Assembly: GCA_028554795.2 (NCBI GenBank)
Contig: CM068835.1
Location: 35,482,401 to 35,546,400 of the forward strand
Origin: Sinohyriopsis cumingii
Taxonomy: Eukaryota; Mollusca; Bivalvia; Unionida; Unionidae
Direction: 5' to 3'
DNA length: 64,000 bases
Both the position numbers and the translations under genes were made by a program. Below, piece after piece: positions 5,609-59,474 of this stretch. Below the pieces are notes generated by a model. It searched no databases. It was not told where the DNA came from and worked only from the letters and a program-made list of their open reading frames with translations. The first letter of the stretch is position 1; each line of letters starts with the position of its first letter.

Positions 5609-8600
5609 ATGTGTGTGTGTGTGTGTACTACTTCCCTACATGTACTGTTCTGATGACTTCAACCCTTTGATTAAAGTTGTTGTTGTTGTTCTAGGGTTTA
5701 ACGCCATTTTTCAGCACAAGATAGGCTATACATGGCGGCCAGTATTAATGGTGGAGGAAGAACCCTGGAAAACCCAGGGAAGAACCACCAACCCACAAGA
5801 AGCTACTGGCAGGCTTTCCCACGTACCCATGCTAGCCGAGAATGGACTTGAACCCATGCAGACAAAGGTGAGATGGCAGTGATCCAGAATGGTGAGAACT
5901 TTAGACCACTCAGCCACCCTTGATTAGAAGTAATTTTTGTATAAATTATAGTTAATGAAGCTGCTAAAAGAGAGCAGGAGTTTAAGAAAATAAGTGTTAA
6001 AGTACTAAATGCAAAAAGTAAAAGTTGAGAAAAATATAATGCAGTGAAAACAGGTTATAAAATTATGGCTTGACATAATAATACTGAAAACATGCAAACA
6101 AAATGGTTTAACATAATAATAATGGACAACAGCTATAAAAATTATGGTTTGACATGATAATATTGTACAAGAGCATTACAATGATGGCTTGATATGACAA
6201 TACTTAAAAACAGTTAAACAAAACTATGATTTGCTGTTCTGAAAGCATCCAGGTTGGTGACTGCACAGTAACTTGGGGGGGGGGGGACATGGATAAGTAC
6301 ATGTAACAGAAAGATACAGTAATTCACAAGTTTTTTTGTGCAAAACAAAAACACATGGTGGTGAAAGGGAAGTAACTCAAAGATCACTAATATTTCTCAA
6401 GATAACCAGGGCCATACTAATTACTACTAACTTTCGAAATTAAAGAATCAATGATCTATGATCCAGAATTTACAGAATGCATTATTTAAGCTCTGTGATA
6501 ATGCAAACAGCTTAACAGATTCTCTATATCATCATTTTAATGGAAATTTAATCATTTAGTTGGGCATTGTGCAAAAGGTCATATTTCACTATTTATTTGG
6601 GAGAGAGAAAAGTGTTTGTAAAGGTAACATTCAGGGCTGTAACAAGATTGCACTGAATGACAAAGTGCACCAGGCCTAAAACTGAACAATCCAAAAATGT
6701 CTTTGAGCATGACCATGCATCAATCAAGGGTCATTCATCAATGTTTGCTATCTTTTTTACCTTTCTATATGCCTGTAAACTGTTTATTTGTTAAATCTAT
6801 TATTAGTTATGGGAATAATAACTAAATGTGTGTATTTTAATGCAAAAGCTGCATATTTAAGTAAAATACAGAATACAAAAATATGACTGGAGAAATGTCC
6901 CAAAGCCCCACTCCACCCCTGCTAGGTGCCCTGTATCACCTTCCCCTTGTAATGGCCATGTTACAAATGAGCCTCAAAATAATAACATTCAGTCTTCACT
7001 GACTGGCTCAAAATGGTTTTGGTCTGGCCTGTTTCTTCAGAGCACATCAGCATGCATAGGTTATTTAGTGCTGGGAAAATGGGAGTAAAATGAATTGTCG
7101 ACGAGGGCTTATTTGATCATAGTATTTAAACCAAAACCATTTCAGTTGCCAATCTGGCATACTACCATGGCAGCTAGTCTCCAGGACTCATGGTACTAAT
7201 TCCACTCCAATGGTAAACATATGGAAACACTATCATATTCAAAATTCAATAACTTAAAATTTATGGGTGCTGATAATGACACCTATAATTTTTCGTGCAC
7301 ATCTAACCTTGGTGCAAGCTTATGTGTGGAGAACACCATATGACCCGCGGCAATTTGTTTACATACATGTGCATGAAACACGTGTTATTGATTCTGCACC
7401 AAATGAATCAGGTGCTACTTTCAGTATTGAGTACTCCTGAGTCAAGCCTGTAAAAATGCTAAAGTTGCATCAGTAGAAATTTGTCAATATTTTTTTTACA
7501 TTACATATAGGATAAGCTCTCAAAAGATATTTTTCCTAAAATTTTAATTTTCATTATTAACCAATTATGGACCACCAAACCTGTAAATACTCTATCATTT
7601 CTTCACCCATTTCTAGACTGGTTCACAGTTCTTCCGTATAATTAGTACCGTGTGTCCTCCAATGACCACTTCTTATGACATGCATAATGGCACATTGGGA
7701 AAACAACGGTCTGCTTCACACACATTTATCTTGAAAAGTCAATGAAAAGCAAACTGACTTCATCTCTGCAGACATTATGTCAAAGATGGATGTCAAGCAT
7801 GGTACGTGTATAGTGTCAAATGTACATACATGTCCAAAGTAAAGTTAGTTATGAATTCATTAACATTATGATCTATGGTAATTCATGTAAAGGTGTGAAC
7901 ACAACACATAAATGGGCCCACATGTAATATAACATGGTATGTTGGACTTGACCTTGCCCAAAACTAAGTTCATTTCTGCTTGACCCAAATTGATTTTTTT
8001 TATATTTTATGTTGTTGGTGTAGGGTTTAATGCCATTTTTCAGCACATGATAGGCTATACATGATGGCCAGTATTAATGGTGGAAGAAGAACCCGGAAAA
8101 TCCCCGGAAAGAACCACAGACCCTTGAGAAGCTACTGGCAAGCTTTCTCACATACCCACATTGACCCAATCCGCGACTCGAACATATGCAGACAGAGGTG
8201 AGATGGCAGTGATCTGTAACAGAAAGCACTTTAGACCAATCGGCCACTCAGGGCCCCTTTTATTTTATTCATTGTAAACAACTAAATTATTCACTATATG
8301 TATGGGTTAAAAATCAGTATTATTATTAATAGAAGAAATAAATATGTTTATGTGGGTCAAGGATTTGGAATTTCCTAAGTGAATTATACATACCCTGGTA
8401 ATCCAGATTGTTTTGTAAATATCAGATCATTGGAGAAGGTTATTTTCCATTAGGTAATGTTTTGTTTTGAAAATGCTAACTATGACCTGAGGTCAAGTAT
8501 AGAGCTATATAAACAGAGGATTTCATCAGTTGCTTTAAGATATAGCATCTTTAAATTGTATTATATGCTGTGTCCAGTGATTTGGGCTGGGAATTTTATT

Positions 8601-11420
8601 TCTTTAAATTATTAAATTCAAGTGATTATTTTCTCTGGAAACACAAAAGTGCTTTGATAAAATTCTTGGATAGAGACATTCACTGGAATTTATAGTGTAT
8701 TCAAACATGGTATTACTTTTCTGTGATTCAACAAAAGACTGTCGGCACATGAACACATGAGGAGCTATAACAGACAAGTCATCACCATCAGTTTTGGATT
8801 TATTCTGGACTTTTACTGAATTTTATTCAGGACTTTAAAAAATGTTACCGTAAATGTGACCTTGGTCATGTAGAGGGCTATATAATCCTGTTTACTGGAA
8901 AAATTATTTATTTATGCTGTAAAAACTTGATTTAGGCAGGAATTAATTATTCAAAATATTATTCTCTGGAATTTGAAAAGTGCTCAATAATATTTCTTAT
9001 ACAGAGATATTAACTGGGAATTATAGTGAATTCAAACAAGGACTTCTTGGACTGTATTACTGTGATTCATCAAAAGACTGTTGGCACATCATTACAATTC
9101 AGGCCATTGGTACAACAGTACATTAGAGACTGCAGGCCACTACAGTCACATCAACACTTTCAGTATTGGAAATTATTTGAAATGTATGTACCTCTAAAGT
9201 TTATTCAGAACTTTATTCATTAGGACACGTTATTTATTCTTGGATTATTCATGATTTAATTCTCAATACTCGTTTTCACTTTGAGTTCTAAGGAAATAAG
9301 TTTTTCATTGAATTTTTTCAAAACTCATTGGTTTTCGCTTTTTTTCTATTATGTTGGTTAAAACCATGGAGCCATAATACCTGTGCATCAGAGTGGAGGT
9401 TACACTGTCTTATCTGCACTGGATTTATCCGTCAAGTCATTAATTTTACATCCTTTTTTAGTTTACTTCTTGTGCAATAATAATTTTCTTTACAGTGGAT
9501 AATTTGATGTGAAGACTGCAGTGGGTGGATAAAATCTATGGTTGCCATCGCAACCAAATCCTGCCATAAATTTGTAAAATTATGACAAAATTAGCTATTT
9601 TATCACTTTTTTATACTGAGCTTATTGTACAACTGTTACCAAGTCAGTTGTGCTTTGATTTTATTCAAATAATTGAGAAAAGCAAGATTTTCTAATTATT
9701 TGGCTAAGATTATCCAAATTCCACCAAATATAGGCATGACAGGTGTTTCGTTTCAGTGAAATGTTAAGATTGAGCACTTATAATCAATAAAATCAATAAA
9801 GTTTGACTGTACATTCTGTGTTCACATATCGCTGCAATATACTCACATGGCCTTAAAAAAACAACTTTCAAATATAAACAAGAATTTGATCCAACATTTA
9901 ATTCGTTGAAATTTATATTAAATAGTTTGGTTAATGTAGCAAAATATCAAAAATGCAGCAACAACATTATGATATTAAAGCTGATTTATAACATATCTCC
10001 AAAATGTGGATGCCAATTTTCAAGTTCAAAAAGAACTTAAAAGAATGCTGAAGAATGATAAACAAATTATAAATTAATGAAGATAAAAGTAGTATAATCA
10101 ATCTAATGCATATTTAAAACAATAACAATCAAATGAATGTTTTCATGCAGCTGCTTATTTTAAAATTTATTTTCTTATAATTATTATCCGATCTATTTCT
10201 TCGATACTTGTTACTAATCCATCTTCATAAATTTGCTGATAATAAATCCTTGAACAAAAATATGTTATAAGTCTGGGATTCATAACTAAAAAAGTGAATG
10301 ATCAGAAGGATTTAATGCCATCAGTAAAAAAACAAGGAGGGGCCCCGAGTGGCCAAGTGGTCTAAGGTGCTCTCCATTACGGATCACTGCCATCTCATCT
10401 CTGCGTGGGTTCGAGTCTCGGATTCGGCTAATGTGGATATGTGAGAAAGCTTGCCAGTAGCTTCTCATGGGTCGGTGGTTCTTTCCGGGCTTTTCTGGGT
10501 TCTTCCTCCACCATTAATACTGGCCGCCATGTATAGCCTATCGTGTGCTGAAAAATGGCGTTAAACCATACAACAACAACAAAAAAACAAGGGATTTTAC
10601 TTACCATCTGCATATAAGGGTCTGTCAAAATAGATGTATTTTTACCAGCAAGCTGTCGATAATGACACTATTTGGGTAGAAAACTCTAGTACAAACAGTG
10701 CCAAGCAACTTTGGTCTCCGCCACAGTAATGTAAGACAAAAAGATTTACTTGTTGGTCTAATATCCCTTAATGAATAAAATTTTTTTAGTACCTATTGAA
10801 GAGTATTCCATGCATGCAAGTAGAATGCTGTTAGGCCTACAATTTTAATAACTTAAAGAGGGCAGGTCGTGTGTGCTACATACACATTTCAGTCAACATC
10901 AAAAAATCTTGTTGGGGTCACAGACGCATGTATAGAAACCGACTGCTGTGTGCCATTTTAAAATTTACATTACAATGCTATTTAATATCTTTCTGGAAGA
11001 TACCAGGTATCCAAAATTATCATATAGATTCAGTTCTTAGTGCACAAGGATACAATTTAATGAGTTTTAATGGAAATTTGCAGAAATATAAACGTTGCCA
11101 GGAACTGATTCCGCGAATGTCGGCTGACGCACCCCACCCCCACCACACACGCACAATAAAATTATATCCGGACCAGTTATACTCGAAAGATAGTTAAGAT
11201 TTGTTCATTAACAGTATTTATTAAAATTATATTCTTGTTCACAGTAGATCTTGTGTCAATGTCTACGTTGTATCATAATCATTGCTCAACTCGATTTCCT
11301 TTCGGTATAACTGGAGCCGTGAGGCATTTAAACATAATAAAACGATGGCACATTGTGTTCATGCACCAAATCCCTACGTAAACCAAAAGGTTAGACCTGA
11401 TCTTTCTCCGTCTCTGCCAT
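490..11420 (-). CDS. TAF13: TAF13, TFIID subunit 13 (four coding exons)
   Basis: TAF13 is a small histone-fold subunit of TFIID that pairs with TAF11 and acts at RNA polymerase II promoters in the nucleus. Four minus-strand exons join in frame: 11397-11420, 2979-3045, 2318-2415 and 490-666. They give 121 residues; human TAF13 has 124. Seen in order: a short N-terminus (MAETEKDQ), an acidic stretch with a basic KRKK patch, the family signature RCMMYGFGDDQNPYTESVD, then VEDIIFLIRKDPKKYSRVKELL and a KARKAFDE C-terminus. Signature and helices match animal TAF13 closely, so exons 2-4 are near certain. Exon 1 is inferred from an ATG, the correct phase and a CAG|GT junction; its donor (GTCTAA) is weak. 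Intron 1 spans about 8.35 kb and holds SINEs. No frame break is seen. Confidence 0.92.
739..768. repeat. (CT)n microsatellite
   Basis: A short run of CT dinucleotides in TAF13 intron 3, within a larger AT-rich intron (667-2317) where I see nothing else. Confidence 0.85.
2318..2415 (-). CDS. TAF13: TAF13 exon 3 (N-terminal half of histone fold)
   Basis: This 98-bp exon holds RCMMYGFGDDQNPYTESVD and LVINFITEM. It is preceded by a pyrimidine-rich tract and TTTTAG, and followed by a GTAATG donor. It enters with two bases of a split Leu codon and leaves in phase 0. Confidence 0.94.
2979..3045 (-). CDS. TAF13: TAF13 exon 2 (acidic linker)
   Basis: This 67-bp exon reads FEDDDAEDDVPLEKRKKIF followed by SKE, and its last base starts the split Leu codon. 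The acceptor TTTTAG and the GTAATT donor are present. FSKELRCMMYGF across the junction is the family consensus. Confidence 0.9.
3327..3651 (-). mobile_element. tRNA-derived SINE, family 2, full length
   Basis: Read on the minus strand, a tRNA-like head has an A box (TGGCCTAGTGG) and a B box (GGTTCAATCC). An internal domain shared with copies at 23.6, 35.1 and 56.3 kb follows, then a (CA)n tail. A perfect 12-bp target duplication, TCAGGGTGACAA, flanks it at 3315-3326 and 3652-3663. It lies in TAF13 intron 1. Confidence 0.88.
3664..5555. other. Intronic stretch with no recognised feature
   Basis: AT-rich part of TAF13 intron 1. The short ORFs here (for example around 3950-4190 and 4650-4940) have no recognisable domain and are likely chance. 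Confidence 0.6.
5556..5626. repeat. (TA)n-(TG)n compound microsatellite
   Basis: A run of TA repeats passes into TG repeats. It produces artificial Tyr-Ile ORFs in two frames, which should not be annotated as genes. Confidence 0.92.
5677..5920 (-). mobile_element. tRNA-derived SINE, family 1
   Basis: On the minus strand: a tRNA-like head with B box near GGGTTCAAGTC, a conserved body (GCTTGCCAGTAGCTTCT, GGCCGCCATGTATAGCCTA and GGCGTTAAACCC types of block), and an ACAACAACAA tail. Imperfect target copies CCCTTTGATTAAAG and CCCTTGATTAGAAG flank it. It is one of seven copies in the window. Confidence 0.85.
5930..8000. other. Intronic stretch with no recognised feature
   Basis: AT-rich TAF13 intron 1 sequence with a poly(G) run near 6276-6288. 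No coding exon or repeat of known type was recognised. Confidence 0.55.
8011..8257 (-). mobile_element. tRNA-derived SINE, family 1 (diverged)
   Basis: It has the same body and GGGTTTAA-type 3' end as the other copies, on the minus strand. The tail is short and decayed. A/T-rich flanks TTTTATATTTTAT and TTTTATTTTATT may be a degraded target duplication. Confidence 0.83.
8487..9230. repeat. Diverged tandem duplication, unit about 370 bp
   Basis: Two adjacent segments (about 8487-8856 and 8857-9230) share ordered blocks. These are GAGGTCAAGTATAGAGCTATATAA against GGTCATGTAGAGGGCTATATAA-type starts, then GTGATTCAACAAAAGACTGT against GTGATTCATCAAAAGACTGT, then a Phe/Leu-rich AT tail. They have diverged by many substitutions and indels. 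No coding capacity is evident. Confidence 0.6.
9231..10325. other. Intronic stretch with no recognised feature
   Basis: AT-rich part of TAF13 intron 1. I see no repeat family or exon here. Confidence 0.5.
10338..10580 (+). mobile_element. tRNA-derived SINE, family 1, full length
   Basis: The best-preserved copy. The head GGGGCCCCGAGTGGCCAAG contains the A box (GTGGCCAAGTGG), and the B box is GGGTTCGAGTC. The shared body and an (ACA)n tail follow. A perfect 12-bp target duplication, AAAAAAACAAGG, flanks it at 10326-10337 and 10581-10592. It is antisense to TAF13. Confidence 0.92.
11397..11420 (-). CDS. TAF13: Probable TAF13 exon 1 (start codon, 8 codons)
   Basis: It reads ATG then AETEKDQ and ends CAG|GTCTAA, leaving phase 0 as exon 2 requires. 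The acidic, Met-Ala start resembles other TAF13 N-termini. The donor is non-optimal and a different upstream exon cannot be excluded. Confidence 0.65.
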
Positions 11421-12052: not shown

Positions 12053-12165
12053 CCCAATCAGATAGGTTCAGCATTTAAAATATTTTAGACGTTGTGCGAG
12101 ACAGTTCAAGCTACTGTTACATAAAACTTATTATTTTATCCATTTACGTACAATAAAGAACAGTA

Positions 12166-13854
12166 ATGCCTCGAAAGTGTGTTAATACCGCGGACAATTT
12201 TTGCTATATTTGTGGGGAAGTGACATTTGCCAACCAGAAGAAAAGTATCAATTCTCAAGTGAAGAAGGCATATCATCTTTACTTCGGATGCAAGGTTGGT
12301 GACCAAGACAAGCCTTGGGCTCCGCATATATGCTGTGCTACATGTACAACACAGCTTTCACAGTGGTTGAATTGCAAAAGGTCATCAATGCCGTTTGCAG
12401 TCCCAATGGTGTGGAGAGAGCCAAGCAACCACCTAAATGACTGTTACTTCTGCTTGGTTCCTCCTCTTTCCGGCGGAATAACGAAGCAAAAGAAGTCGAG
12501 AATAGTCTACCCAAACATTCCGTCTGCATTGAGACCAGTTCCACATGGTGAGGGACTTCCTATTCCAGAACCTCCAGCAGAATATTCTCTTGATTCATCT
12601 GACGAAGACAAAGGTGAGTCGACCTGTTCTTCTCCTGGTCCATCAGCATGCAGTGATCCAGATTATCACTGTGGTGCATCATCAACCCCACACAGAATAA
12701 CACAGGAAGAACTAAATGACCTGATTCGTGATTTGGACTTATCAAAGAACAAGGCAGAATTGCTAGGATCAAGACTCCAACAATGGAATCTTCTAGAAGA
12801 AGATGTCACAATTACTGCATATCGAAAGCGCCACCAGCAATTGGAGCCTTTCTTCAGAAAGGAAAGTAATCTGATATTCTGTTCCGATATTGAGGGCCTC
12901 ATGAATGCTTTAAAAATCACTCATGACCCACAAGAATGGAGACTATTTGTGGACTCTTCGAAACTGAGTCTCAAGGCTGTGCTTTTGCACAATGGAAACA
13001 TTCTTCCATCTATTCCAGTAGCGTATGCTGTCCACATGAAAGAGACATACGATAACTTAAGGCAGCTACTGAATTCCATTGAGTATAACAAGTACAGCTG
13101 GCACCTCTGTGGTGATTTGAAGGTAGTTGCCCTTTTAATGGGACTGCAGCAAGGATATACAAAATACATGTGTTTCTTATGCGAGTGGGATAGCCGAGCA
13201 AGGGAAATGCACTACATGAGGAAGGAATGGACTCACAGGCAGAATGTAGCCATTGGAGAGAAGAATATCCAACACCCAGCTCTGGTTGAGGCTCAGAAAA
13301 TCTTGCTACCACCCCTTCACATCAAACTAGGTTTGATGAAGAACTTCGTGAAAGCCATTGACCGGACTTTGCCAGCATTCCGATACCTGCATGAAAAATT
13401 CCCTCGACTCAGCGAAGCAAAGATTAAAGAGGGAGTTTTTGTGGGTCCTCAGATTCGAGAGCTTTTCAAAGATGACCGGTTCAACAACTTGCTGGAAGGT
13501 GACGCGAAACAAGCATGGAATGCTTTTCGCCTAGTTTCTACAAACTTCCTCGGAAATGTTAGGGCAGAAAACTATAAGGAACTAGTAGAAGACATGTTGA
13601 TGAAGTATAAGAAACTTGGCTGCAATATGTCTCTAAAGATTCACTTCCTTCATTCCCATTTGGATTTCTTTCCTAGCAACTGTGGTGTTGTTAGTGATGA
13701 ACACGGCGAACGTTTTCATCAAGATATCGCAACAATGGAACAAAGATACCAGGGAAAATGGTCCACTACAATGCTGGCTGACTACTGCTGGACACTCCTC
13801 AGAGATGCTCCCGAACAGCTGTACAAGAGACAGGCGAAGAAATCTAAGATGTAG
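12166..13854 (+). CDS. Intact 562-aa zinc-binding, transposase-like protein
   Basis: A single uninterrupted exon. The N-terminal zinc-binding module has Cys at residues 13/16 (CYIC), 56/57/60 and 93/96 (CYFC), and contains the phrase KPWAPHICC. Residues 131-170 are acidic and Ser-rich. The C-terminal part has a DDE-like layout: FVDSS (Asp263), LCGDLKV (Asp317), a CFLCEWDSR insert (Cys336/Cys339), a His cluster (493-498) and DEHGERFHQD (511-520). From memory, proteins with these motifs occur in many, often near-identical copies in cnidarians, arthropods and molluscs, which suggests a mobile origin. The nuclease assignment is my inference; no function is established. The start is the first ATG after a TATA box, and no intron is needed. 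It could be an active element gene or a domesticated one. Confidence 0.85.
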   Translation: MPRKCVNTADNFCYICGEVTFANQKKSINSQVKKAYHLYFGCKVGDQDKPWAPHICCATCTTQLSQWLNCKRSSMPFAVPMVWREPSNHLNDCYFCLVPPLSGGITKQKKSRIVYPNIPSALRPVPHGEGLPIPEPPAEYSLDSSDEDKGESTCSSPGPSACSDPDYHCGASSTPHRITQEELNDLIRDLDLSKNKAELLGSRLQQWNLLEEDVTITAYRKRHQQLEPFFRKESNLIFCSDIEGLMNALKITHDPQEWRLFVDSSKLSLKAVLLHNGNILPSIPVAYAVHMKETYDNLRQLLNSIEYNKYSWHLCGDLKVVALLMGLQQGYTKYMCFLCEWDSRAREMHYMRKEWTHRQNVAIGEKNIQHPALVEAQKILLPPLHIKLGLMKNFVKAIDRTLPAFRYLHEKFPRLSEAKIKEGVFVGPQIRELFKDDRFNNLLEGDAKQAWNAFRLVSTNFLGNVRAENYKELVEDMLMKYKKLGCNMSLKIHFLHSHLDFFPSNCGVVSDEHGERFHQDIATMEQRYQGKWSTTMLADYCWTLLRDAPEQLYKRQAKKSKM

Positions 13855-18272: not shown

Positions 18273-18920
18273 GGTCGCTATCAGAACGGGTCATGGGGTA
18301 ATCTGAGGTTATTTTGTTACTTGCTACGATTTTTTTCCTTCAGATTTTTGCTTTTTACTTTACAACATCAAGCTCGCGTCGAGCACCTGTGGTTTTTCAT
18401 AGAGGGCGGCGGTCGTCTGATGTTTATGACGAGCGGAGCATAAGCAGGGAACCGGACTAGTTTGACAATCTCTTACACCAGTCTAACGTTATGAAACCCT
18501 GCATGAAGTAGAAACAATGTCAAGCCATCAGATTCAGGCAGTTACAGACAACCAAGGCGAAAAACCCAAATTAAAGCCATGCTGCGCTTGCCCCGAGACT
18601 AAAAAATCTAGAGATGCATGGTAAGTCTGACTTTTCCAGGATTAAAGAATAAGATTTCATATGACAGTAAATGATGAAATTCAAACGCGTGGTGTCCAGT
18701 TATATAATTACAGTAATAACCATTAACGTCTGCAAAACATCTTTATAATGTTTGTAATGCTGTTATAATAATAATGATTGTACTCCAGCCATTCATTTAA
18801 GATTTTCTACTCTTTAAATTGAATAGAAAATGAAACGTTTAAAAGTTTTTACGACGCGAAATCGCTGTAAAAATTCATACCTTGTATAGATGATCAACCT
18901 TGATCATCAAGGTCATACCC

Positions 18921-19682
18921 TAGTTCTACAATGTAAGACATAGCACATGGTTTTGTTTAAGTGCTGTGTCTTACTGACCAAATAACGGGCTTGTATAGCG
19001 TATTCCGATGTCGTTGATATCGGAACGAGTAGTCAAAGTTTCAGGAATATCTCGCTCACTTGGCAGCCTATATCGACACTCCTCCACGAATTTATGTGTA
19101 ATTAATATACTTACTGTGCTGTCTTTATCCTGGCGGAATGAAAATATGACACTAGCAAATGGACGCATTTTCATGTTCGGTTGACATACATTTGAATTTG
19201 TTGCAATGCGATGGTTTTGGTATGCTGAAGTATATTTAAGTAGGTCCATGTGGCGGATATGTTTCTTGAACAAAATGAAATGTTGTTTACAGTTCCAATA
19301 GGCAAAACATATTTTGCATTCATTTCATCAAAGAATAATATTTCAACTCAACCCAATTTCGGCATTCACAGCTTTCATCACTTTCCAGCCTGAAATGTAG
19401 GCCAATGAAACTTGAAAACAGGTCTATTTCTTTTGTGAGAATTTGAATTTATTAGAGAAAAGACAGCAGGGTAAGTAAAGTCTGACAAAAGCATTATAGC
19501 TTTACTTTGTAGGAGAGCATCGTTATTGGTTGTCAGTTGTGTGTGATATTTCTGAAAATTTGACTTTCATTTTACTGTTAGTTCACATCAAAACATGCTA
19601 TACAACACCGTTACTTAGCCTGTAAGACCCATCACCCCCCAGAACAAAAATATCGGGTGATGTGTCTTACGTTGTAAAACTA
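18921..19682. mobile_element. Foldback element F1, copy 1 (near-complete palindrome)
   Basis: The ends are inverted: TAGTTCTACAATGTAAGACA on the left and TGTCTTACGTTGTAAAACTA on the right. Complementarity continues inward almost to the centre. A left block GTGTCTTACTGACCAAATAA mirrors the right-arm block around TTACTTAGCCTGTAAGACCC, and ATTTGAATTTG, TATGCTGAAG and CTGTCTTTAT blocks have mirrored partners. The flanks GGTCATACC (18911-18919) and GGTCACACC (19683-19691) look like a 9-bp target duplication with one mismatch and one extra base. It has no ORF of note. Confidence 0.85.
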
Positions 19683-20062
19683 GGTCACACCTGTTCTTTT
19701 GCCTCTTTTGACTTCATCCTGCTTTGATGCAATATCATAAACTCCTTGTTCTCGAGGAAACACATATCTGATAAACATCACACTGATCAACACAGATTCA
19801 TATAGACAGACACTTTTGTCAAAAATCCAGTCAATATCTGCAGTGAATTTAGTCCTACAATGCAAGACTTATTACGTTTTATTTTAGTCATACATGTAAG
19901 ACGTATTACATGTTATTTATGTTATAGTGCTACATCTTACTGCCTAAATAATGGCCTTGTATAAAATGTTCCGATGTCAACCAACATTAGAAAGATAGTC
20001 TAATGGTTTCAGGAATATCTTGTACACTTGGCAGCCCATATCAGCATTCTACCACAGTGTGT

Positions 20063-20215
20063 TGGGTATGTGAGAAAGCTTGCCAGTAGCTTCTCGTGGG
20101 TCGGTGGTTCTTTCCGGGGTTTTCCCGGGTTCTTCCTCCACCATTAATACTGGCCGCCATGTATAGCCTATCGTGTGCTGAAAAATGGCGTTAAACCCCT
20201 ACAACAACAACAACA
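20063..20215 (+). mobile_element. Family 1 SINE, 5'-truncated, nested in F1 copy 2
   Basis: Only the body and the (AAC)n tail remain; the tRNA head is missing. A perfect 12-bp target duplication, ACCACAGTGTGT, at 20051-20062 and 20216-20227 shows insertion into the foldback element. Confidence 0.92.
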
Positions 20216-20738
20216 ACCACAGTGTGTAATAAAATTCTTGCTGTGCTGTTTTTATCTTGGTGGAATCAAAATCTGACACTTGCAAATGGATGCATTTTCA
20301 TGTTCCGTTGACATGCATTTGAATTTGTTGAAATGCATTGGTAGTCGGGGTATGCCAAAGTATGTTCAGGTAGGTTCATGCTGGAGGATATGTTTCTTGA
20401 ATGAAATTAAATGTTGCTTACAATTCCAATAGGCATAATATATTTTTATTTTATTTAGTTAAAGAATAATACTTCAACTTATCCCAGTTTTGGCATTCCC
20501 AGCTTTCATTGCTTTCCAGCCAGCTGAAATGTAAGCCAACCAAACTTGAAAACAGGTTGTGTGCGAATGAAATTTCTTAGGAAAAAGACATCAGAGTAAG
20601 TAAAGTCTGATACACTATAACCTTAATATGTAGAAAAGCACTGATAAAGGTTGTCAAGTGTGAGGTATTCCATAAAATTTTACTTTTATTATGATATCAG
20701 TCGACATCAAAACATACTACACAGCACCATCATTTATG

Positions 20739-20990
20739 TTGTTGTTGTTGTTTTGGGGTTTAACACCATTTTTCAGCACACGATAGGCTATGCATGGCAG
20801 CCAGTATTAATGGTGAGGAAGAACCTGGGAAAACCCCAGGAAGAACCACTGACCCACGAGAAGCTACTGGCAAGCTTTCTCACATACCCACATTAGCCGA
20901 ATCTTGGACTCGAACCCACGCAGATAGAGGTGAGATGGCAGTGATCCGTAACGGAGAGTGCTTTAGACCCCTCAGCCACTCGGGGCCCCT
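20739..20990 (-). mobile_element. Family 1 SINE, full length, nested in F1 copy 2
   Basis: A minus-strand copy with head, B box and (TTG)n tail. A perfect 12-bp target duplication, CCATCATTTATG, lies at 20727-20738 and 20991-21002. Confidence 0.93.
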
Positions 20991-21439
20991 CCATCATTTA
21001 TGCAGTAAGACCTTGATGGCCAAAAAATAAATATCAAGGACAGGGTCTTACATTGTAGGACTACAGTGAATTGAACCCCAAGATTGCTACATGCCAACCA
21101 TTACACTTTTGGCCTAATCATTATGCTTTTTTCACTAAATTATGCCTTATGTGTAACTGTATTCAGATTTCGCATTTTCGGTATATCCCCCTCCCCCCCA
21201 AAAATTTATAATTTGCTTTGTCATTTTTATTAACATCCATTAATCCCACACACCATATTCTAGAAAAGATGGCTTCTATGTAACTATGACATAAGAGTAC
21301 ACTTGTCCAAAGACTTGCATGCACTTTCCTATATGAATTACATACTACAGCGTTCCATTCTAGGGCAGATTCATGCCCCTTGCAGGCTACATGGAAAGGA
21401 TTTTAATATTGGTCATGGAAGTAAAACAAAGAAACATTG

Positions 21440-22411
21440 AATTAGCTCGTTTTATTAACTCCAATACTAAGTTAACTTCTTTTTTCACAGCAAAACTTAA
21501 TTGTGGACACGAATTTTATAAATGCAGAGGCGTTAGTTCTACTTTGTTCTTAACAGAACACACCAGTGATAGAAGACTACATTGGTCATTTGTTCAAACG
21601 ATTTTTTATGTTTTTTTGCTTGATAATGCTTTAAGTAAGTTGGCAGAACTGTATGGGGTTTTCAGCTGATACTGCATCAGCGATGACTGAAATTCATAAA
21701 GGAGTTGCATTTTTTTTTTTACAGCAAAACTTAATTGTGGACACGAATTTTATAAATGCAGAGGCGTTATCTACTCAGTTCTTAACAGAACACAGACTAC
21801 CACTAGTGATAGAAGACTACATTGGTCATTTGTTCAAACGAATGGTTTTTTTTTTTTTTGCTTGATAATGCTTTAAGTAGGTTGGCAGAACTGTATGGGG
21901 TTTTCAGCTGATACTGCATCAGTGATGACTGAAATTCATAAAGGAGTTGCATTCTTTATTTTGAAAAATGTCTCCATCATTGTACATATCAGGTTGTCTC
22001 TGTCATATGATGCACCTTGCTGCAGGAAAGGCTGATGATAATTAGGAGAACTCTTGAAGTATCAAGTTGACACTCTACCTGACAATGTACTTAATGTAGA
22101 CAGTTGATTTTTTCCATCTTATTTTACAGCTAAAAGACCCAATAACTGGAAGATATAAATTTCCTCTTCTTTGTCATGTTATGAAAGGAATATTGATTCT
22201 TTACCATTACAATGCTGACTGTGAGAGATTGTTCAATATTAACAAAAATAAAACTGAATTCAGATCCAGGCTATATAAAACAGCACTTAGTGCTCTACTG
22301 GTGTGCAAAACATTCATAGTCTCAACTGGTACAAAGTGTTTTGAAATGCAATATGAGAGTCTGTTGCTTTTTAAATCTCAAAGTGTTATATACGAAAACT
22401 TGAAGCAGTAA
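21440..22411 (+). pseudogene. Decayed hAT-family transposase
   Basis: Two parts are recognisable. At about 21488-21960 a tandemly duplicated segment (unit 234 bp) reads INAEALSTQFLTEH, RLPLVIEDYIGHLFKRM. This resembles the FLxEHxLPLxxADHxGxLFxKMF region of hAT-type proteins. At 22130-22411 the C-terminal dimerisation region is intact in frame: PITGRYKFPLLC, then YHYNADCERLFNINKNKTEF and RSRLYKTALSALLVCKTF, ending in TAA. NADCERxF and KTxxRxxL are diagnostic of hAT C-termini. Stops, frameshifts and poly(T) runs between the parts show decay. A TTTTACAG before 22130 could be a splice acceptor. It lies between two foldback elements. Confidence 0.72.
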
Positions 22412-22737
22412 TTGATGTTAAAAGTCCAGAGGGATAAATAAATCATTTTGTACATATGCTCATTGAATTTTTATCATGTTATATATGGATTACTCTTTTT
22501 CTGCTCGGATTACTCTTTTTGTCCAACTTGGATTAGACTTTTTCCTTGCCGGGGTTGGCATGTATGTTGCTATCCTCAGGCATAATATTGTTAAAAATAT
22601 AGACTTCTTTGGATTGACACTGGTCTTATTACGTCTTTCTAATTTTTCTACCATAACCCATAAGACAATAGGTCAAGAGCAGACCAAAAGTTCAATAAAA
22701 TAAGTGCATAGATAAAAAATTTCAGCTGTTTCCTCTT

Positions 22738-23485
22738 TAGTCGTGCAGTTTAAGATGTATTCCCTGGTATTTATGTGTTTGGGTGCTGTGTCTTACTCCC
22801 TAAATAACAGCCTTGTTAAGTGTGTTCCCAAGTCGACTGACCGGAAAACAAGAGGTCAAATTTTCAGGAATATCTCACACACCTGGCAGCCCATATTGAC
22901 AATTTTCCAGTAATTTAAATCTAACTGATATACTTACTTTTCTGTTTTTGTCTAGATGGAATCAAACCTGCCAATAGTGAATAGATGCATTTTCTTGTTA
23001 TGTTGACGTACATTTCATTTGGTTGGAATGTGATGGAAGCTAAGAATGCTGAAATTGGATTAAGTTGAAATATGTTTCTTTATAGAAACAAAGAAAAATA
23101 TACATGTACTAATATTGAACAAAGTGTTTAGATAGCTTTATTTCATTCAAGATATTTATCATCCTTTCAACCAATTTCGGCATTCCTGGCTTCCATCACA
23201 ATTCAACCAGCTGAAATGTAGGTCAGTATAACTTGTGTGAGAAATTGAATTTATTAGAAGAAAAGACACCAGAGTAAGTTAAGTCTGCATAAATTATCAT
23301 GATTTTGTTTTGTGGAAAAGCACTGATATATGCTGCCAAGCACGCAAGATATTCATGAAAATTTGGTTTCTTGTTCTGATGTCACTAGACAATTGGAATA
23401 TGCTATACAAGGCTGTTATTTAAGCAGTAAGACATAGCATGCAAAGATGTAAATATCATTTGATATGTCTTTCATTATAGAACTA
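22738..23485. mobile_element. Foldback element F1, copy 3 (most diverged)
   Basis: Ends TAGTCGTGCAGTTTAAGATG and the right-hand mirror TCTTTCATTATAGAACTA are degenerate. The inner block GTGCTGTGTCTTACTCCCTA and the order of blocks match copies 1 and 2. Flanks TTTCCTCTT (22729-22737) and TTTTCTCTT (23486-23494) match at 8 of 9 positions. The AAGATTGGTTGAAA-type centre is rearranged. Confidence 0.78.
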
Positions 23486-23582
23486 TTTTCTCTTCAGCAA
23501 AAGGGAATTTTCAGACATGTCCAAAATGAAAACATTTTTTATTATACCCTGAACTAAAATAATTTGGTGATTTTTTATTGTT

Positions 23583-27199: not shown

Positions 27200-27200
27200 A

Positions 27201-27450
27201 GGGGCCCCATGTGGCCAAGTGATCTGAAGTGTTCATCTTTACAGTTCACTGCCATCTCACCCGTGTCCACGTGGGTTCAAGTCTTGGGCTCAACCATTGT
27301 GGGTATGTGAGAAAGCTTGCCTGTAGCTTCCCATGGGTTGATGGTTCATATCTGGATTTTCCCATGTATTTTCTCTACCATTTATAGTGGCCGCCATGTT
27401 AAGTCCATCATGTGCTGGAAAATGGCATTAAAACCACAAGAAGCACAACA
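27201..27450 (+). mobile_element. tRNA-derived SINE, family 1 (diverged)
   Basis: The head GGGGCCCCATGTGGCCAAG, the B box GGGTTCAAGTC and a GAGAAAGCTTGCCTGTAGCTT body are present. The 3' end has decayed to AAGAAGCACAACAC. AATAATA-type flanks may be a target duplication. Confidence 0.85.
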
Positions 27451-32912: not shown

Positions 32913-33168
32913 TGGGGGGTGGGGGCAGAGTTGTCTAAAGCTCTCACCGATATGGATCACTGCCATCTCACCTTTGTGTGGGTTCGAGTCTCGGGTTTGG
33001 CCAATGTGGATATGTGAGAAAGCTTGCTGGTAGCTTCTTGTGGGTTGGTGGTTCTTTCCAGGGTTTTCCCAGGTTTCTTCCTCCACCATTAATATTGGCT
33101 GCCATGTATAGCTTAGCTTGTACTGAAAAATGGCATTAAACCCTACAACAACAACAACAACAACAACA
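32913..33168 (+). mobile_element. tRNA-derived SINE, family 1 (head decayed)
   Basis: The first 40 bases are degenerate and G-rich. From ATGGATCACTGCCATCTCAC onward it matches the family, with B box GGGTTCGAGTC and a long (ACA)n tail. ACAATT occurs at both borders. Confidence 0.86.
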
Positions 33169-46786: not shown

Positions 46787-49700
46787 TAATAATAATAATG
46801 AGGACTTTGTATAGTGCCTAATCTTTAGAAGCTCTAAGCGCTTTACAACATTAGACAACACCTATAGGATAAAAAAACATATAATAATATTATTACAAAA
46901 AAAAAAAACACAATGAAGTTAGAAAAAACATTAAAAATTAAAAAAAAACATGCTGAGAATATTTCAGGTAGGAAACATCATTAGATCTTTAAGTTTGTTC
47001 TTGCAGTCAAAATAAGTGAGTTTTGAGAGCACTCTTGAATGGGATCACTGTGTCTTTGTGTCTAAGTTCAGTGGGCAATTCATTCCATGTTGCTGGGCCC
47101 TGGTATGCAAAAGAACGCTGTCCATATGACTTTGTTTTCATAGTGGGAATAATGAGTACAGGATTGTCAGAAGAGGAGCGTAAGTATCTTGCTGGTGTGT
47201 ACACATGGCTGAGGTAGGATAGGTATGTTGGACTGGAGTCCATCATTGAAACGTAGCACAGAGAACAAATTTTGTGTTTGATTCTGAATCGAATGGATAG
47301 CCAGTGTAGGGTACAGAGCAGCGGGGAGGTGTGCTCTGATCGTGGTACTCACAGTATGATCCGAGCAGCTGTGTTTTGAACTTTTTGAAGTTTCTGGAGT
47401 AGATATTGAGATGAACTAGACAGAACTGAGTTACAATAGTCCTGTCTTGAAAGTACTAATGAACACACAAGTGTTTTAGTGGCATCAACTGAAAGATATT
47501 TGCGAATGGAGCTGATGCGTCTCAGCTCAAGATATGAAGCCTTGCATATGTTCATGACATGTTGGTGCAATGTGAGAGTACTGTCCAGAGTAACACATAG
47601 GTTTCGTACTGATTGTGTGAATTTAATGTTGGTGTTGTTGATATTTATTGTTTGAGGTAAAGGATGTGAATAAGAAAATCTTTGTATTGTGATCAGAATG
47701 GCCTCAGTTTTATCATCATTCATCTGCAGCTTGTTACATGTCATCTATGATTTCACATCAGAAATGCACCTCTCTACACCTTGGATGGTAGCATCAACGT
47801 CAGTTGGGTGGCTAGATCTGTATATTTTGGTGTCATCAGCGTACAATTGGTGAGACACTGGATGATGATCTATGACACTTGAGAGCGGCTGAGTGTACAG
47901 CATGATGAGAACAGGTCCAAGAACAGACCCCCGTGGAACACCACAACATAGATCAACTGGGCTGGAGTGTATTCCGTTTGCAGATACAATTTGTGTCCTG
48001 TTTACCAAGTAGGACTTGAACCACAGTAAGGCTGTATCATGAATGCCAAATACATGCTGGAGACGGTGACGTAATATATCATGGTCTATTGTGTCATATG
48101 CTGAAGACAAATCAAGGAGGGTGAGGACTGTAATCTTTCCGCTATCCAACGCAGAGAGAAAGTCGTTAATTACTTTTAGAAGAGCAGTTTCAGTATTATG
48201 GTAAGGGCGATATGCAGATTGTACATTGCTAAAAAGACTGTTTGAATTTAGATGAGATACAAGCTGGGATAGAACAACCTTTTCTAAGATTTCTGATATG
48301 AATGGGAGATTAGAAACTAGGCGGTAGTTCTTTAAATCGTTATGGTCTAGTGTTGGTTTCTTCAGCAGAGGCTTTACAATGGAAGTTTTGAAAAATGATG
48401 GGAATTCCCCGGATGAGAGAGAGGTATTAATAACATCAGATAGTGAAGGCAATACTGGATATAAGCACTCAAGCAGCAGTGATGTTGGAATTGGATCAAG
48501 TTCACATGACTTTGGTGCACTCTTCATCAGGATTGTATGTACAAAATCCATAGAGACAGGTTCAAATGCTGCTAATGGTTGCCGCTCAAATTCTGTATCC
48601 CAACTGTATGGTGACGACGAGTCAATTGAAATTGTGGTGTCAAGCTTATCTCTAATGGTTTGTACTTTGTCACAGAAGAAATTTGCAAACATGTCCGGAA
48701 GGACGACTGGAGAGAAGGTAGTTGAAAGTGGTGTTGATTTGTTCCTTGACATTAGCTTGTTAGTAATCTCGAAGAGCTCTTTGCAGCTGGAACTTTCCAT
48801 GATCTTAGTAGTGTAGTAGCATGATTTCGCTGCATGGACTATATTTGTGACATTCTTTTTAGCGACTAGATTTGCTTATGAATAGTTAGTCTGGTGGAAA
48901 GCCAGAGCCTCTCAGCTTTACGGCGGTCGATTGTAGCAGTGCGACGCTGGTCCCTAACATTGTTATAGCATGGAGAACACTTTTGAATTGATACTCTGCA
49001 CTTGGTAGCTGGGGCATGTTTGTCAAGCAATGAACGCAGACAGTTATCGAGTTGTTCTGCTGTAGGAGGTAAGCAAGTTGTTAGGTTAGCTTGGATGTCG
49101 TGCATTAGTTTGGTTCTATTTATCATGCGGAGGTTTCTCTTAGTAGCAGATAAAGGTAGAGGGTTAGGGACTGATACGTCAAGATGGCATATAATGCAGA
49201 GGTGATCTGATGCAAGGTCATGGGATACCAAAGAGGACCGTAGAATGTTATCATCAGGTCTATGAAGAATCCAGTCTAACTGACTGTTTGAGGTTGAAAA
49301 CATTAATGGCATCTATGAGTTTTGATGTATTTGTGTTTCCGGGACAGTCAAAGTGAAAGTTGAAATCTCCAAGAATAATCAGGTTGCCACCTATCGAATT
49401 TCCATAGTCCAGGAGATTCGGAAACTGCTCCAAAAAGAGAGTCAGCCAGCTTGTTTTTTTCTACTAGGAGGAGGGCGGTATAGGCAGAAAAAATGGACTG
49501 ACCTTTGCTCCAGTGTGAGTGTGGTTTGCACTAGTTCAAACGATGTGTGGTCGAAATTGAATGCTGTGGTGTAGCAATTCCACTTCCGCGAGAATTACGG
49601 GGGAACGACTTGATGGAGCAACCAGTGGGTGTTAGATCCGCCTGATGTTTTCAGCCATGTTTCAATCAGGAAAAATATGTCAACATTTTGGTCGTTGATA

Positions 49701-54237: not shown

Positions 54238-54491
54238 TTCACGCAACAATTTAAGCATCATCCGTATTGTAATAAATAATGTGTGGATGAATAACTTTCT
54301 GCAACGAGATACTAGCGGCAACTCTGAATTTTTAATATCAGCTCGACATGCGCTGAATGCCTCTCATACGCTTGGCTTTCTTCTATTCATGTACTACAAT
54401 GGAATACAATCAGTTACCTCAGTCACTTCCATTAGAACTTAGTGGCGACATCATGAAATAAAATTCCTGGTAAATACTAACTGTGAAAATT

Positions 54492-57400
54492 ATGACATTT
54501 AAAATGAAACTTCACATTTTAAAAGTGTTTTCAATCTGTTTCATTGGAATATGCTCTACATTAGAAGAAAGGAGACTTGAAATTTCTTATAAAGAACTAA
54601 AAAGAAGAGGAGATTTTCCAGGTATGCGTAAGGACGGTTACCAGTACTTGAATATATCCTCTATTGGTTTGGGGCAATGCGGGCAGGAATGTGTCTTACG
54701 ACGCAATTGCAAGTCTTTTAACTACAACTTGGAAACTTTCGAGTGTGAACTTAATAAGGAAAGTGTACTTAGCAAACCATACGAGGGGTGGACGGATGAT
54801 CCCAAATGGTTCCATGGCTTGAAAGGCACTTGGATTAAGGTATGAATCCGTATTTTCTTCGCTCGTACCCGGCCAAAACTGTTTATCCAGCATTATATGC
54901 CGGCAACTGGTATATCTATTTCATCCTAGTGGTTAATCAGTGACGTCAGTCAAACAAAGATGACGTCATTCTATAATAGCTAGTTTTGACCCTCCCCACC
55001 CCCATCTCAGAACTGCAGTGAGTGGTTGGTAGCGTCATGTTGACGCATGGCATTATGGATACAAAGATTGAAATTGTTGTACTTCGTTCGAAGATTTAGG
55101 CTAATAGTTATTTACGGTCTTGAGACCACAGGAATTGTAACACATTCGTCACCCAATGCATTATTTCGTTCAACCGATCTCCCTGGTGGCTCTGTAAGAC
55201 CGTCGTGAAATGAATTCTCGTTATTCGCTGCTACACAACCTAAATTGGCAAGCCAGTATCATCTGCCGACAAACAGCAAAATCTATGTCTCCAGGCCGGT
55301 TAGTCAGTGACGCAATTCGTACAACAGCAACATCATTTACATAGGTGGCGATCCTTAGTTTTGTTTTGTGCACAAGGGTTACATTTTTAAAGGAAAAGAA
55401 TTTCATAGGTTTTCCTCACTTGTTGTCCTGGCTATTTAAACAAGACCCCGTATATCTTAGGTATTGCTAAAAGAACTTTTAATTCCCTTTATTTTGGTGT
55501 ATGAATGATGGGTATGATTTGTCTCATGGAGTATACAGCTTGGTCTTACTTTAGATGTACATCTATCAAACAACTGCTACCTACTTCAAAGGTAAATTGT
55601 GAAAAAAGAGCCGATAACTTTATTTTTACTTTTTATAGCATTTGCAATTCATTTATTGCGCTTTCAGAAGCTGGTATTATCTAGTCTGGCAAAGTTCGTT
55701 TTCCGTATTGTAAAACCTGCCAAAACAGACGGGAGAGTTATTTTGGTTCGTTGTGTGCCTAGATCATACAGTTTCCACAAGTACAGTATCCAAAGATATT
55801 TCAGCCATAGTACATGAAAATAACAAAGAGGTATGCTAATATTCTATCCACTGTTTATGTTGCAAATGCAAATAACTTTACCTTATATATGTCACTTTCC
55901 CAGACGTACATAATATCTGTATACTTTCCCCATATAGACCTAATTAGTATTATAACTGCATGACTTAATTATGGTTGTATAGCTGAAACATCTAAGTAGC
56001 AAGCATCAAAACAGTCCTTTGCAATAATTCTCATATTTTTCCACACTGAGCAGCATTTATTAGCAGAAAGTGCCAGATAAGGCCAGCAACATCACCCACA
56101 TGATGAAATGTGAGCTATTTTATAAACGCACATTTTAATTTCTCAACATAGCAACCATTGTTATGGTGAAAGACATGACCTTAAAGCTTTTCAAAGTTAT
56201 TCCTGAGATGCCACTAATAAATAGTACAGTTTGAAAAGGGATGGAACAGATCCGGTTTATGAAGGTCAAAGGTCAACGGGTAAAATATTTGTGTGATGTG
56301 ATGTGATTTTGATTTTTAACTTAGCTTTAACAATTTTTCAGTCATACGATGTCTGCAGAGTGGCAGTTTATAGTGATGTCTAGCACTGGGGCATCATGCC
56401 GCATTATCCCTTCACCAGGCCGACCAGTCCTAACACTAACCTCTTAATGCTGAACGCCAAGCGAGGCAGTTGTTAGTACCATTTTTTAAGTCTCTTGTGT
56501 GACTCGGTAAAATATTTGCTTATTCTTCTAACACTAGCATCTGGAAGAAAGCGATTCTGTTTTATCACCATTTTTTCCTTGATTTTATTACAAATGAATG
56601 AAATAAAATATTTTCACTGTATTTTTCGTTCACTTAATGCAACAGTTTTGAATTTAAGCTGACCTCATTCCTGTGTTCTAAGACTTTTGATTTTTCTATA
56701 ATTAAGGCCATTGCGTCTATAATACTGGCACAAGGCATAATGTGTATGCAAGAACAAAAATAAGCATAATTAGCTTATTTTCATACATAACATTAACAGG
56801 TATTGTTAAAAGAACTGTCGATTTCCTTTATTCTGGTGTATGATTGCCATGTGTGATTTTGGGTTATAGCGTAACCTTACTTAGATGCACATATAAAGAA
56901 GACTGCTAGCTCCGCTTGGTAATTTTGACTTCAAAGGTAAATTGTAAGAAAAGAAACGAGTCAATGCTTTAAAAAAATACTTTTGATGTATTTTGTATAT
57001 CATTAATTCCACTTTCAGAAGCTGGTAGTGTCTACTCTGGCAGAATTTGTTTTCCTAATTTAATACCTGCTAAAATTAGTGTACATTGGACTAATTCATG
57101 TTTTTCGAGCACACGGGAGCAGCAGTATTAGTCATCTGTTTGCTTAGATCATGTACAATTTCCAAACGTACAATATATCAGCCAAATACATAAAGTACTA
57201 TAGTGGTATGCCAACATTGTAAGCAATTTCACATTTCAACTGTCACTGTGTATTATCAGTAGAACGTTTGGTTGGTAGTTTCACAACTGCGTGATGCACT
57301 GTGGGTAAAAAAAGTACGGAAATCTCAAAGATGGCTGTTGAGTTATCTGCTTTCCCACGACCACCGGAAGGATGATGCTGTAGTCAGCAAATGTCGGCTA

Positions 57401-57790: not shown

Positions 57791-58377
57791 TGGCAAAAGA
57801 CTTCAAGGAATAAAAGTGGACAAATAACTAGCCTATAATATATGCCATATAATCATGTTTTTGGATTTGGAAACTAAACATAAAGATAAATGTCAAACCG
57901 TATTCCCTTATCAGGCGTGACCACGTTCCGCTATCATACGTAACCGCGTTCCATTATATGGCATAATCACGTTCCTGCTGTCAGACGTAAAACTGGAGAA
58001 ACTTGAACTCTTCATCCGCTAGTCATTGGAAAACTAATCGTGGAGAAAAATACACGGAAAGTTGACTACGAGACATCAAACTGATTTCTTTAGACATACA
58101 TATTAGTCTTGTGATATTTAAGCTGCAATACTTAAAAACAGAAGAAAAAAACCATCGAAAATGAAATGTATTATATTTTGCATAGAAAAGCAAAACATGT
58201 TAATATCATTTTTCATAAAAATAGCAAATACTCGTAAAATAAGTGTTGCAAGAACCTTTTCTGTACATATCACGTTCCAATGCAACCATTTAGCACAAGT
58301 GTGTAATCTACTTCAGTTACTCTTTCTTAGAAGAGTGAATAAAGATGGCCATACCTATATTCTGCTTCTTCTTTTCT

Positions 58378-59295
58378 GATATATGCATACCGATATTGTA
58401 GTATGATATATGCATACCGATATTGTAGTATGATACATGCATACCGATATTGTAGTATGATACATGCATACCGATATTGTAGTATGATACATGCATACCG
58501 ATATTGTAGTATGATATATGCATACCGATATTGTAGTATCATACATGCATACCGATATTGTAGTATCATACATGCATACCGATATTGTAGTATCATACAT
58601 GCATACCGATATTGTAGTATCATACATGCATACCGATATTGTAGTATCATACATGCATACCGATATTGTAGTATCATACATGCATACCGATATTGTAGTA
58701 TCATACATGCATACCGATATTGTAGTATCATACATGCATACCGATATTGTAGTATCATACATGCATACCGATATTGTAGTATGATACATGCATACCGACA
58801 TTGTAGTATCATACATGCATACCGATATTGTAGTATGATACATGCATACCGACATTGTAGTATCATACATGCATACCGATATTGTAGTATGATACATGCA
58901 TACCGATATTGTAGTATGATACATGCATACCGATATTGTAGTATGATACATGCATACCGATATTGTAGTATGATACATGCATACCGATATTGTAGTATGA
59001 TACATGCATACCGATATTGTAGTATGATACATGCATACCGATATTGTAGTATGATATATGCATACCGATATTGTAGTATGATACATGCATACCGATATTG
59101 TAGTATGATACATGCATACCGATATTGTAGTATGATATATGCATACCGATATTGTAGTATGATACATGCATACCGATATTGTAGTATGATACATGCATAC
59201 CGATATTGTAGTATGATACATGCATACCGATATTGTAGTATGATTTATGCATGCCAGTACTGTAGTATGATATATGCATACCGATACTATATTAT
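58378..59295. repeat. 27-bp minisatellite, about 34 units
   Basis: The unit reads GATACATGCATACCGATA then TTGTAGTAT. One position alternates between TATGATA and TATCATA. TATGATA units occupy the outer parts, TATCATA units form a block from about 58536 to 58780, and two 54-bp dimers follow in which a GACATT variant precedes TATCATA. Since 27 is a multiple of three, all frames stay open and ORFs of up to 330 codons appear on both strands. They are artefacts. Confidence 0.95.
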
Positions 59296-59474
59296 GACAT
59301 GCAATATAAATGGGTATACTCTATTAGGAACCATGCTTTGTCACCATTTTAACATCTCTTGCAAAGCAACAATTATATATGTATTGACAGTATAACACAT
59401 GTTTACATTACTATAAATTAAAAACTTATACTGAGTAAAATGACATGTAATGTTATGTACATATCCTACTTTTA

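Follow-up and report, generated by a model that had tools for sequence, protein, structure and literature searches.

The locus described here raises two questions, namely, what kind of element accounts for three palindromic sequences lying within 4.6 kb of each other in the genome of the bivalve Sinohyriopsis cumingii, and what moved them there. The window, i.e., the whole stretch of 64,000 nucleotides that was analyzed, carries copy 1 at positions 18921 to 19682 (762 bp), copy 2 at 19850 to 21063 (1,214 bp), and copy 3 at 22738 to 23485 (748 bp), all on the plus strand. These coordinates, proposed in a first-pass annotation, proved exact, since the same terminus, TAGTYCTACAAYGTAAGACA, is common to the starts and the ends of the three copies. 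With up to three mismatches allowed, the terminus pattern TAGTYCTACAATGTAAGAC matched five of the six copy ends and no other site in the window, where 0.06 matches would be expected; only the left end of copy 3, which has diverged further, was missed. The blocks are colinear and equally oriented among the copies, in agreement with the shared inverted ends and block order described earlier. Scanning the whole window with the family consensus revealed no further copies, and no open reading frame (ORF) of 120 amino acids or more was found between 18921 and 23485. The 9-mers flanking the copies were also as annotated. Copy 2 is enclosed by a perfect 9-bp target duplication (CAGTGAATT, 19841 to 19849 and 21064 to 21072), the flanks of copy 3 match at 8 of 9 positions (TTTCCTCTT at 22729 to 22737 and TTTTCTCTT at 23486 to 23494), and those of copy 1 (GTCATACCC at 18912 to 18920 and GGTCACACC at 19683 to 19691) depart from a perfect 9-bp duplication by one mismatch and one extra base.

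Copy 2 measures 1,214 bp instead of 785 bp because two SINEs of one family have inserted into it. The first, truncated at its 5' end, occupies 20063 to 20216 on the plus strand and has an 11-bp target duplication (CCACAGTGTGT, 20052 to 20062 and 20217 to 20227). The second lies on the minus strand at 20739 to 20990, with a 12-bp target duplication (CCATCATTTATG, 20727 to 20738 and 20991 to 21002). This SINE ends in a ACAACAAC tail and has seven copies in the window, the other five being located at 5670 to 5917, 7999 to 8258, 10338 to 10585, 27200 to 27450, and 32924 to 33162. Its head appears tRNA-like by eye; neither ARAGORN nor Rfam called a tRNA, and the one Rfam match in the SINE region was far under the gathering score. 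Copy 2 also shows a doubled terminal unit at its left end (19848 to 19918, plus strand, period of 34), with the match to the consensus beginning at 19885. Since the 9-bp duplication is external to the outer unit, this doubled-unit end was probably mobile.

The palindromic structure was assessed by aligning one half of each copy against the reverse complement of the other half. The scores were 69.5, 103.5, and 99.0 for copies 1, 2, and 3, respectively, while the best of 200 base shuffles gave −16.5, −35.0, and −13.5. The family consensus scored 116.5 (top of 200 shuffles, −18). We used scores and folds rather than the percent identity of the halves because the latter is a weak statistic here: shuffled halves aligned with free gaps average 63% and reach a maximum of 70.6%, which is nearly the 71.6% of the consensus. 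The arms of copy 1 are 381 nt long, with 244 identities and 111 mismatches, so that the complementarity is imperfect and extends to the center. The hairpin of more than 300 bp per arm that had been proposed for this copy thus stands as regards arm length and falls as regards perfect pairing. RNA folding, suggested at that stage as a check, placed copy 1 at −247.1 kcal/mol, with 20 dinucleotide shuffles of it at −175.4 ± 5.8 (z = −12.4), and copy 3 at −273.3 kcal/mol, with its dinucleotide shuffles at −164.6 ± 6.7 (z = −16.2). The pairing in these predicted folds is mostly on the axis of the palindrome (199 of 259 pairs in copy 1 and 263 of 276 in copy 3). For copy 2 without its SINEs, 59 of 267 pairs lay within 25 nt of the axis and 224 of 267 within 60 nt. 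The low first count arises because the doubled end unit shifts the axis, and on removal of the first 35 nt as well, 221 of 259 pairs were on axis.

Inverted repeats fill most of the element in copies 1 to 3 and in the consensus, as is characteristic of foldback elements, and this palindromic architecture holds on the genome copies too. Tandem subrepeats within the inverted repeats, which also belong to the strict definition, were absent from copies 1 and 3 at a score of 40, and in copy 2 they amount to one 34-bp end unit that is doubled. We therefore name the family foldback-shaped and not foldback in the strict sense. Each end of the consensus has a small hairpin of its own, formed on the left by GTAAGACATAGCAC and its reverse complement further in and on the right by a similar pair, so that the motif GTAAGAC is present four times with alternating orientation. 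These alternating motifs near the ends may be binding sites for the transposase.

The family is abundant. A DNA search of the genome assembly (2.90 Gb, 1,138 contigs) with copy 1 returned 3,325 first-look candidates. Forty of these were scored; besides copy 1 itself, the top match in each is 83 to 88% identical to copy 1, and most of these matches span nearly the full length. With no more than one mismatch, the 22-base end was found 1,823 times and its reversed pattern 0 times; with no more than three, the counts were 5,956 and 519, respectively. This abundance, together with a length of about 770 bp, inverted termini, and the lack of an ORF of at least 120 amino acids in the region, is that of a MITE. 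Our alignment comprised 31 rows: 29 genome loci, one of which is copy 1, plus copy 3 and copy 2 stripped of its SINEs. Four of an initial 33 loci were left out because they have their insertion site in common with a fifth; these five (L053, L055, L058, L060, and L063) have identical flanks (GTCCAAAATA) and are a single insertion multiplied inside a larger repeat. The majority consensus, from whose vote copy 3 was excluded, is 771 bp long. The 29 loci are 90 to 96% identical to it (92% for copy 1), copy 2 is 83% identical, and copy 3, the most diverged of the three in the window, is 74% identical; as they were picked up through either similarity to copy 1 or an exact end, the sampled loci lean to one lineage. 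Divergence reached 27.8% at CpG sites versus 5.5% elsewhere, which looks like the decay of methylated DNA after insertion. The family is probably inactive now.

The two arms of the consensus are 71.6% identical in the alignment mentioned above and 69% identical in another. Since the arms are about 30% apart while the 29 loci keep 90 to 96% identity to the consensus, the drift of the arms preceded the spread of the sampled lineage. In a tree built from twelve arms, left and right arms separated with a support of 0.949, and each arm of copy 3 fell with its own side, the right one by a thin margin (identity of 0.69 versus 0.67). The inverted duplication thus appears, from these sequences, to predate the split between the lineages of copies 1 and 3. 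We saw no sign of homogenization of the arms by conversion after the left/right split.

We then turn to the length of the target duplication, which bears on the mobilizer. In a first count, covering the 31 of 33 loci with both ends clear and including the five loci of one insertion site, the identity between left and right flanks peaked at 9 bp (0.59 versus 0.27 between different loci). The independent set has 31 sites, copies 2 and 3 being added to the 29 loci. Here, mean flank identity was 0.61 at 9 bp, compared with 0.27 for 8 bp and 0.41 for 10 bp, and it ranged from 0.22 to 0.41 over all lengths from 5 to 13 bp except 9. A match of at least 8 of 9 bases, with up to two bases of slack, was observed at 17 of the 31 sites versus 1 of 930 mismatched pairs, and none of 10,000 permutations attained the real mean 9-bp identity. 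The remaining 14 sites, two of which (L012 and L013) have a poorly located right end, fell short of this match, which we put down to age. Flanks were perfect at 10 bp in two of the 31 sites and at 8 bp in none. A duplication of about 9 bp is that of the Mutator superfamily (MULEs), while the 8 bp of hAT elements is at background here. Accordingly, the 9-bp duplication and the case against hAT, first argued from the window, hold on the genome copies.

The family also has short relatives of about 70 to 140 bp, made of the two ends and little else, several of which have flank repeats of 9 to 10 bp. Nine of them (L078, L081, L082, L091, L092, L094, L095, L096, and L098) were among 21 places retrieved with a pattern for ends lacking the usual body. 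By eye, flank repeats are perfect over 9 or 10 bp at L094, L095, and L096 (of which L095 and L096 occupy the same site), match at 8 of 9 positions at L078, L082, L091, and L092, and are absent at L081 and L098. Two further short elements were found, one in L066 with a 10-bp flank repeat and one in L067 without such a repeat. These mini-elements suggest that movement needed little besides two ends. The L066 region (G000:C1:165382336-165391336) contains a 4.2-kb tandem repeat with units 99.8% identical, each carrying one mini-element of about 100 bp. On the same contig, C1, five pairs of exact ends, of which three belong to a single tandem array, span 94 to 104 bp, and another two pairs span 753 to 758 bp. 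Among the 85 elements or solitary ends on this contig that have an exact end, 3 gaps are shorter than 5 kb versus 0.17 expected, two of these three gaps falling within one 4.2-kb tandem array. Moreover, a second family piece lies within 1.5 kb at 3 of 14 sampled loci outside the window (L004, L006, and L014). This suggests that insertions are clustered in the genome.

MULE transposases are present in the genome. PF10551 gave at least 132 matches (150 of 474 candidates scored), and PF00872 gave one (E = 1.3e−4). Thirty of these 132 PF10551 loci, examined with 1.5 kb per side, fall into six groups, and none has family ends at up to four substitutions in 22 bases. At eight weaker-scoring MULE loci, of 5 to 6 kb each, we found only stray matches to the ends (3 to 5 edits in 19 bases), of which the closest, with 3 edits at L074, was taken as chance without a control. 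Pieces of the consensus were found at none of these 38 loci, and the ends of 13 MULE loci in three groups differ from those of the family (e.g., GGACAAAATGGTA and GGTCTAGGAAATTACCCC). Contig C1 has two MULE matches, with the nearest exact family end 0.6 Mb away from one and 1.2 Mb away from the other. An autonomous partner was also sought through ends without the usual body. The first such pattern gave the 21 places mentioned above (12 for the reversed control), which, besides the nine short elements, comprise ends that are nested or stacked, chance matches, L079, whose longest frame within 3 kb has at most 81 codons, and L090, which by eye continues into a LINE reverse transcriptase-like frame. 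A second pattern gave 6 places (0 for the reversed control). The proposed search for genome relatives and for a MULE with the same terminal inverted repeats (TIRs) therefore succeeded for the relatives, with thousands of ends, and for the presence of MULEs, but not for a MULE carrying these ends. A Mutator-like transposase, as the first-pass annotation suggested, is the best reading of the 9-bp duplication and the most likely mobilizer; we infer it rather than report it as found, because none of the 38 MULE loci examined carries the family ends. Some MULE-domain genes of this genome are arranged in tandem, in steps of about 12.4 kb and many with a 643-amino-acid open frame (G000:C12:68601977-68756653, C12:77591217-77665601, C478, and C153), and a further array has steps of roughly 19 to 21 kb (C7:129820070-129995583).

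That result at the 38 MULE loci would also suit a MITE from another, possibly undescribed, superfamily (e.g., hAT or P) whose target duplication is 9 bp by coincidence. The flank data argue against this origin, since identity peaks at 9 bp and stays at background at 8 bp, contrary to what hAT and other 8-bp duplicators would leave, and MULEs exist in the genome; we consider it improbable. The proximity of the three copies, within 4.6 kb, and the second pieces at 3 of the 14 sampled loci could alternatively suggest that copies 1 to 3 derive from the local tandem duplication of one insertion. However, the copies are only 67 to 79% identical to each other, and their flank repeats differ in sequence, which refutes such a duplication and leaves it practically no chance.

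A third alternative concerns function, i.e., that the copies were retained because they supply a small-RNA pathway with long hairpin RNA. Copies 1 and 3 do fold far better than their shuffles, but the variation among the 29 loci points the other way: pair-keeping double changes between the arms are at the level of shuffles (40 versus 37.6 ± 4.9), and divergence is alike at paired and unpaired sites (6.9% and 7.5%, respectively). The pairing of the hairpin thus shows no sign of upkeep by selection. Since, in addition, no Rfam family reached the gathering score in the window, we regard retention for this function as highly unlikely. It is an equally speculative idea, to which we give little credence, that a MITE family which spread as a near-full-length, already diverged palindrome might feed long hairpin RNAs from thousands of loci into an animal small-RNA pathway, its arms being too diverged to suffer the instability of perfect palindromes while its RNA still folds.

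Taken together, we think it very probable that the family is a Mutator-like, gene-less, foldback-shaped MITE, i.e., a non-autonomous cut-and-paste DNA transposon of about 770 bp, and that copies 1 to 3 are independent, old insertions of it. An ancient inverted duplication would have produced the two halves while copies 1 and 3 still shared a lineage. The arms would then have diverged, every copy inheriting the already diverged pair, and the copies would have been moved by a transposase, most likely Mutator-like, recognizing the shared ends and duplicating 9 bp of target. This Mutator-like family adds a large member to the foldback-shaped MITEs with 9-bp duplications. The order of events that it offers, from inverted duplication through arm drift to the spread of the sampled lineage, bears on the origin of foldback shapes and on the rarity of long near-perfect palindromes.

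The family is a new one within a familiar type, set apart from Tm1 and Tetris by their descriptions. Tm1, a Mutator/Foldback family of root-knot nematodes with a MITE-like class, Tm1-ML, is described as having composite inverted repeats, 9-bp target duplications, mostly gene-less MITE-like copies, and signs of inactivity, all of which resemble the family studied here (PMC3169594). The same description gives Tm1 a putative autonomous copy of the Phantom type and asymmetric outer motifs, and its TIRs consist of 1 to 9 units of a motif of about 14 bp, with an average identity of 93% (PMC3169594). In our family, by comparison with that account, the inverted repeat reaches the center, the arms are about 30% apart, no autonomous copy was found, and a doubled end unit is seen in copy 2 of the window and, by eye, at L085. 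Tetris, a foldback element of Drosophila virilis, is likewise described as a foldback structure without a conserved ORF, with target duplications of 8 to 10 bp and no autonomous copy found; Mutator was proposed from the duplication length, and the TIR ends are common to a smaller MITE, DAIBAM (PMC4079207). It differs in its three structurally complete copies and in internal tandem repeats that seeded a satellite (PMC4079207), whereas our family has thousands of ends in the genome. Closer at hand, several MULE families of the same genome (L016 to L045 and L070 to L077) are compact, with inverted repeats around the MULE domain, but none of these 38 loci has the ends of the palindromic family. 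MULEs occur in all the mollusc genomes covered by a study of bivalve transposons, according to its text (PMC10294476). Our literature search met no palindromic MULE-type MITE with 9-bp duplications, a result that cannot show the family to be unnamed.

Several other features were observed in the window. Between copies 2 and 3, at 21480 to 21962, there is a 242-bp tandem duplication with 91% matches. A LINE-like reverse transcriptase with an RVT_1 match is encoded on the minus strand at 47745 to 48875, and another, recognized by the likeness of its frames, lies at 59710 to 61014 on the same strand. On the plus strand, an open frame of 565 amino acids (12157 to 13854) contains cysteine pairs without a Pfam match and is perhaps derived from a transposon, and the open frame at 54474 to 54845 has a PAN domain and is probably an exon of a host gene. 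Finally, a 27-bp unit is repeated 34 times in tandem at 58377 to 59297, where several frames are open.
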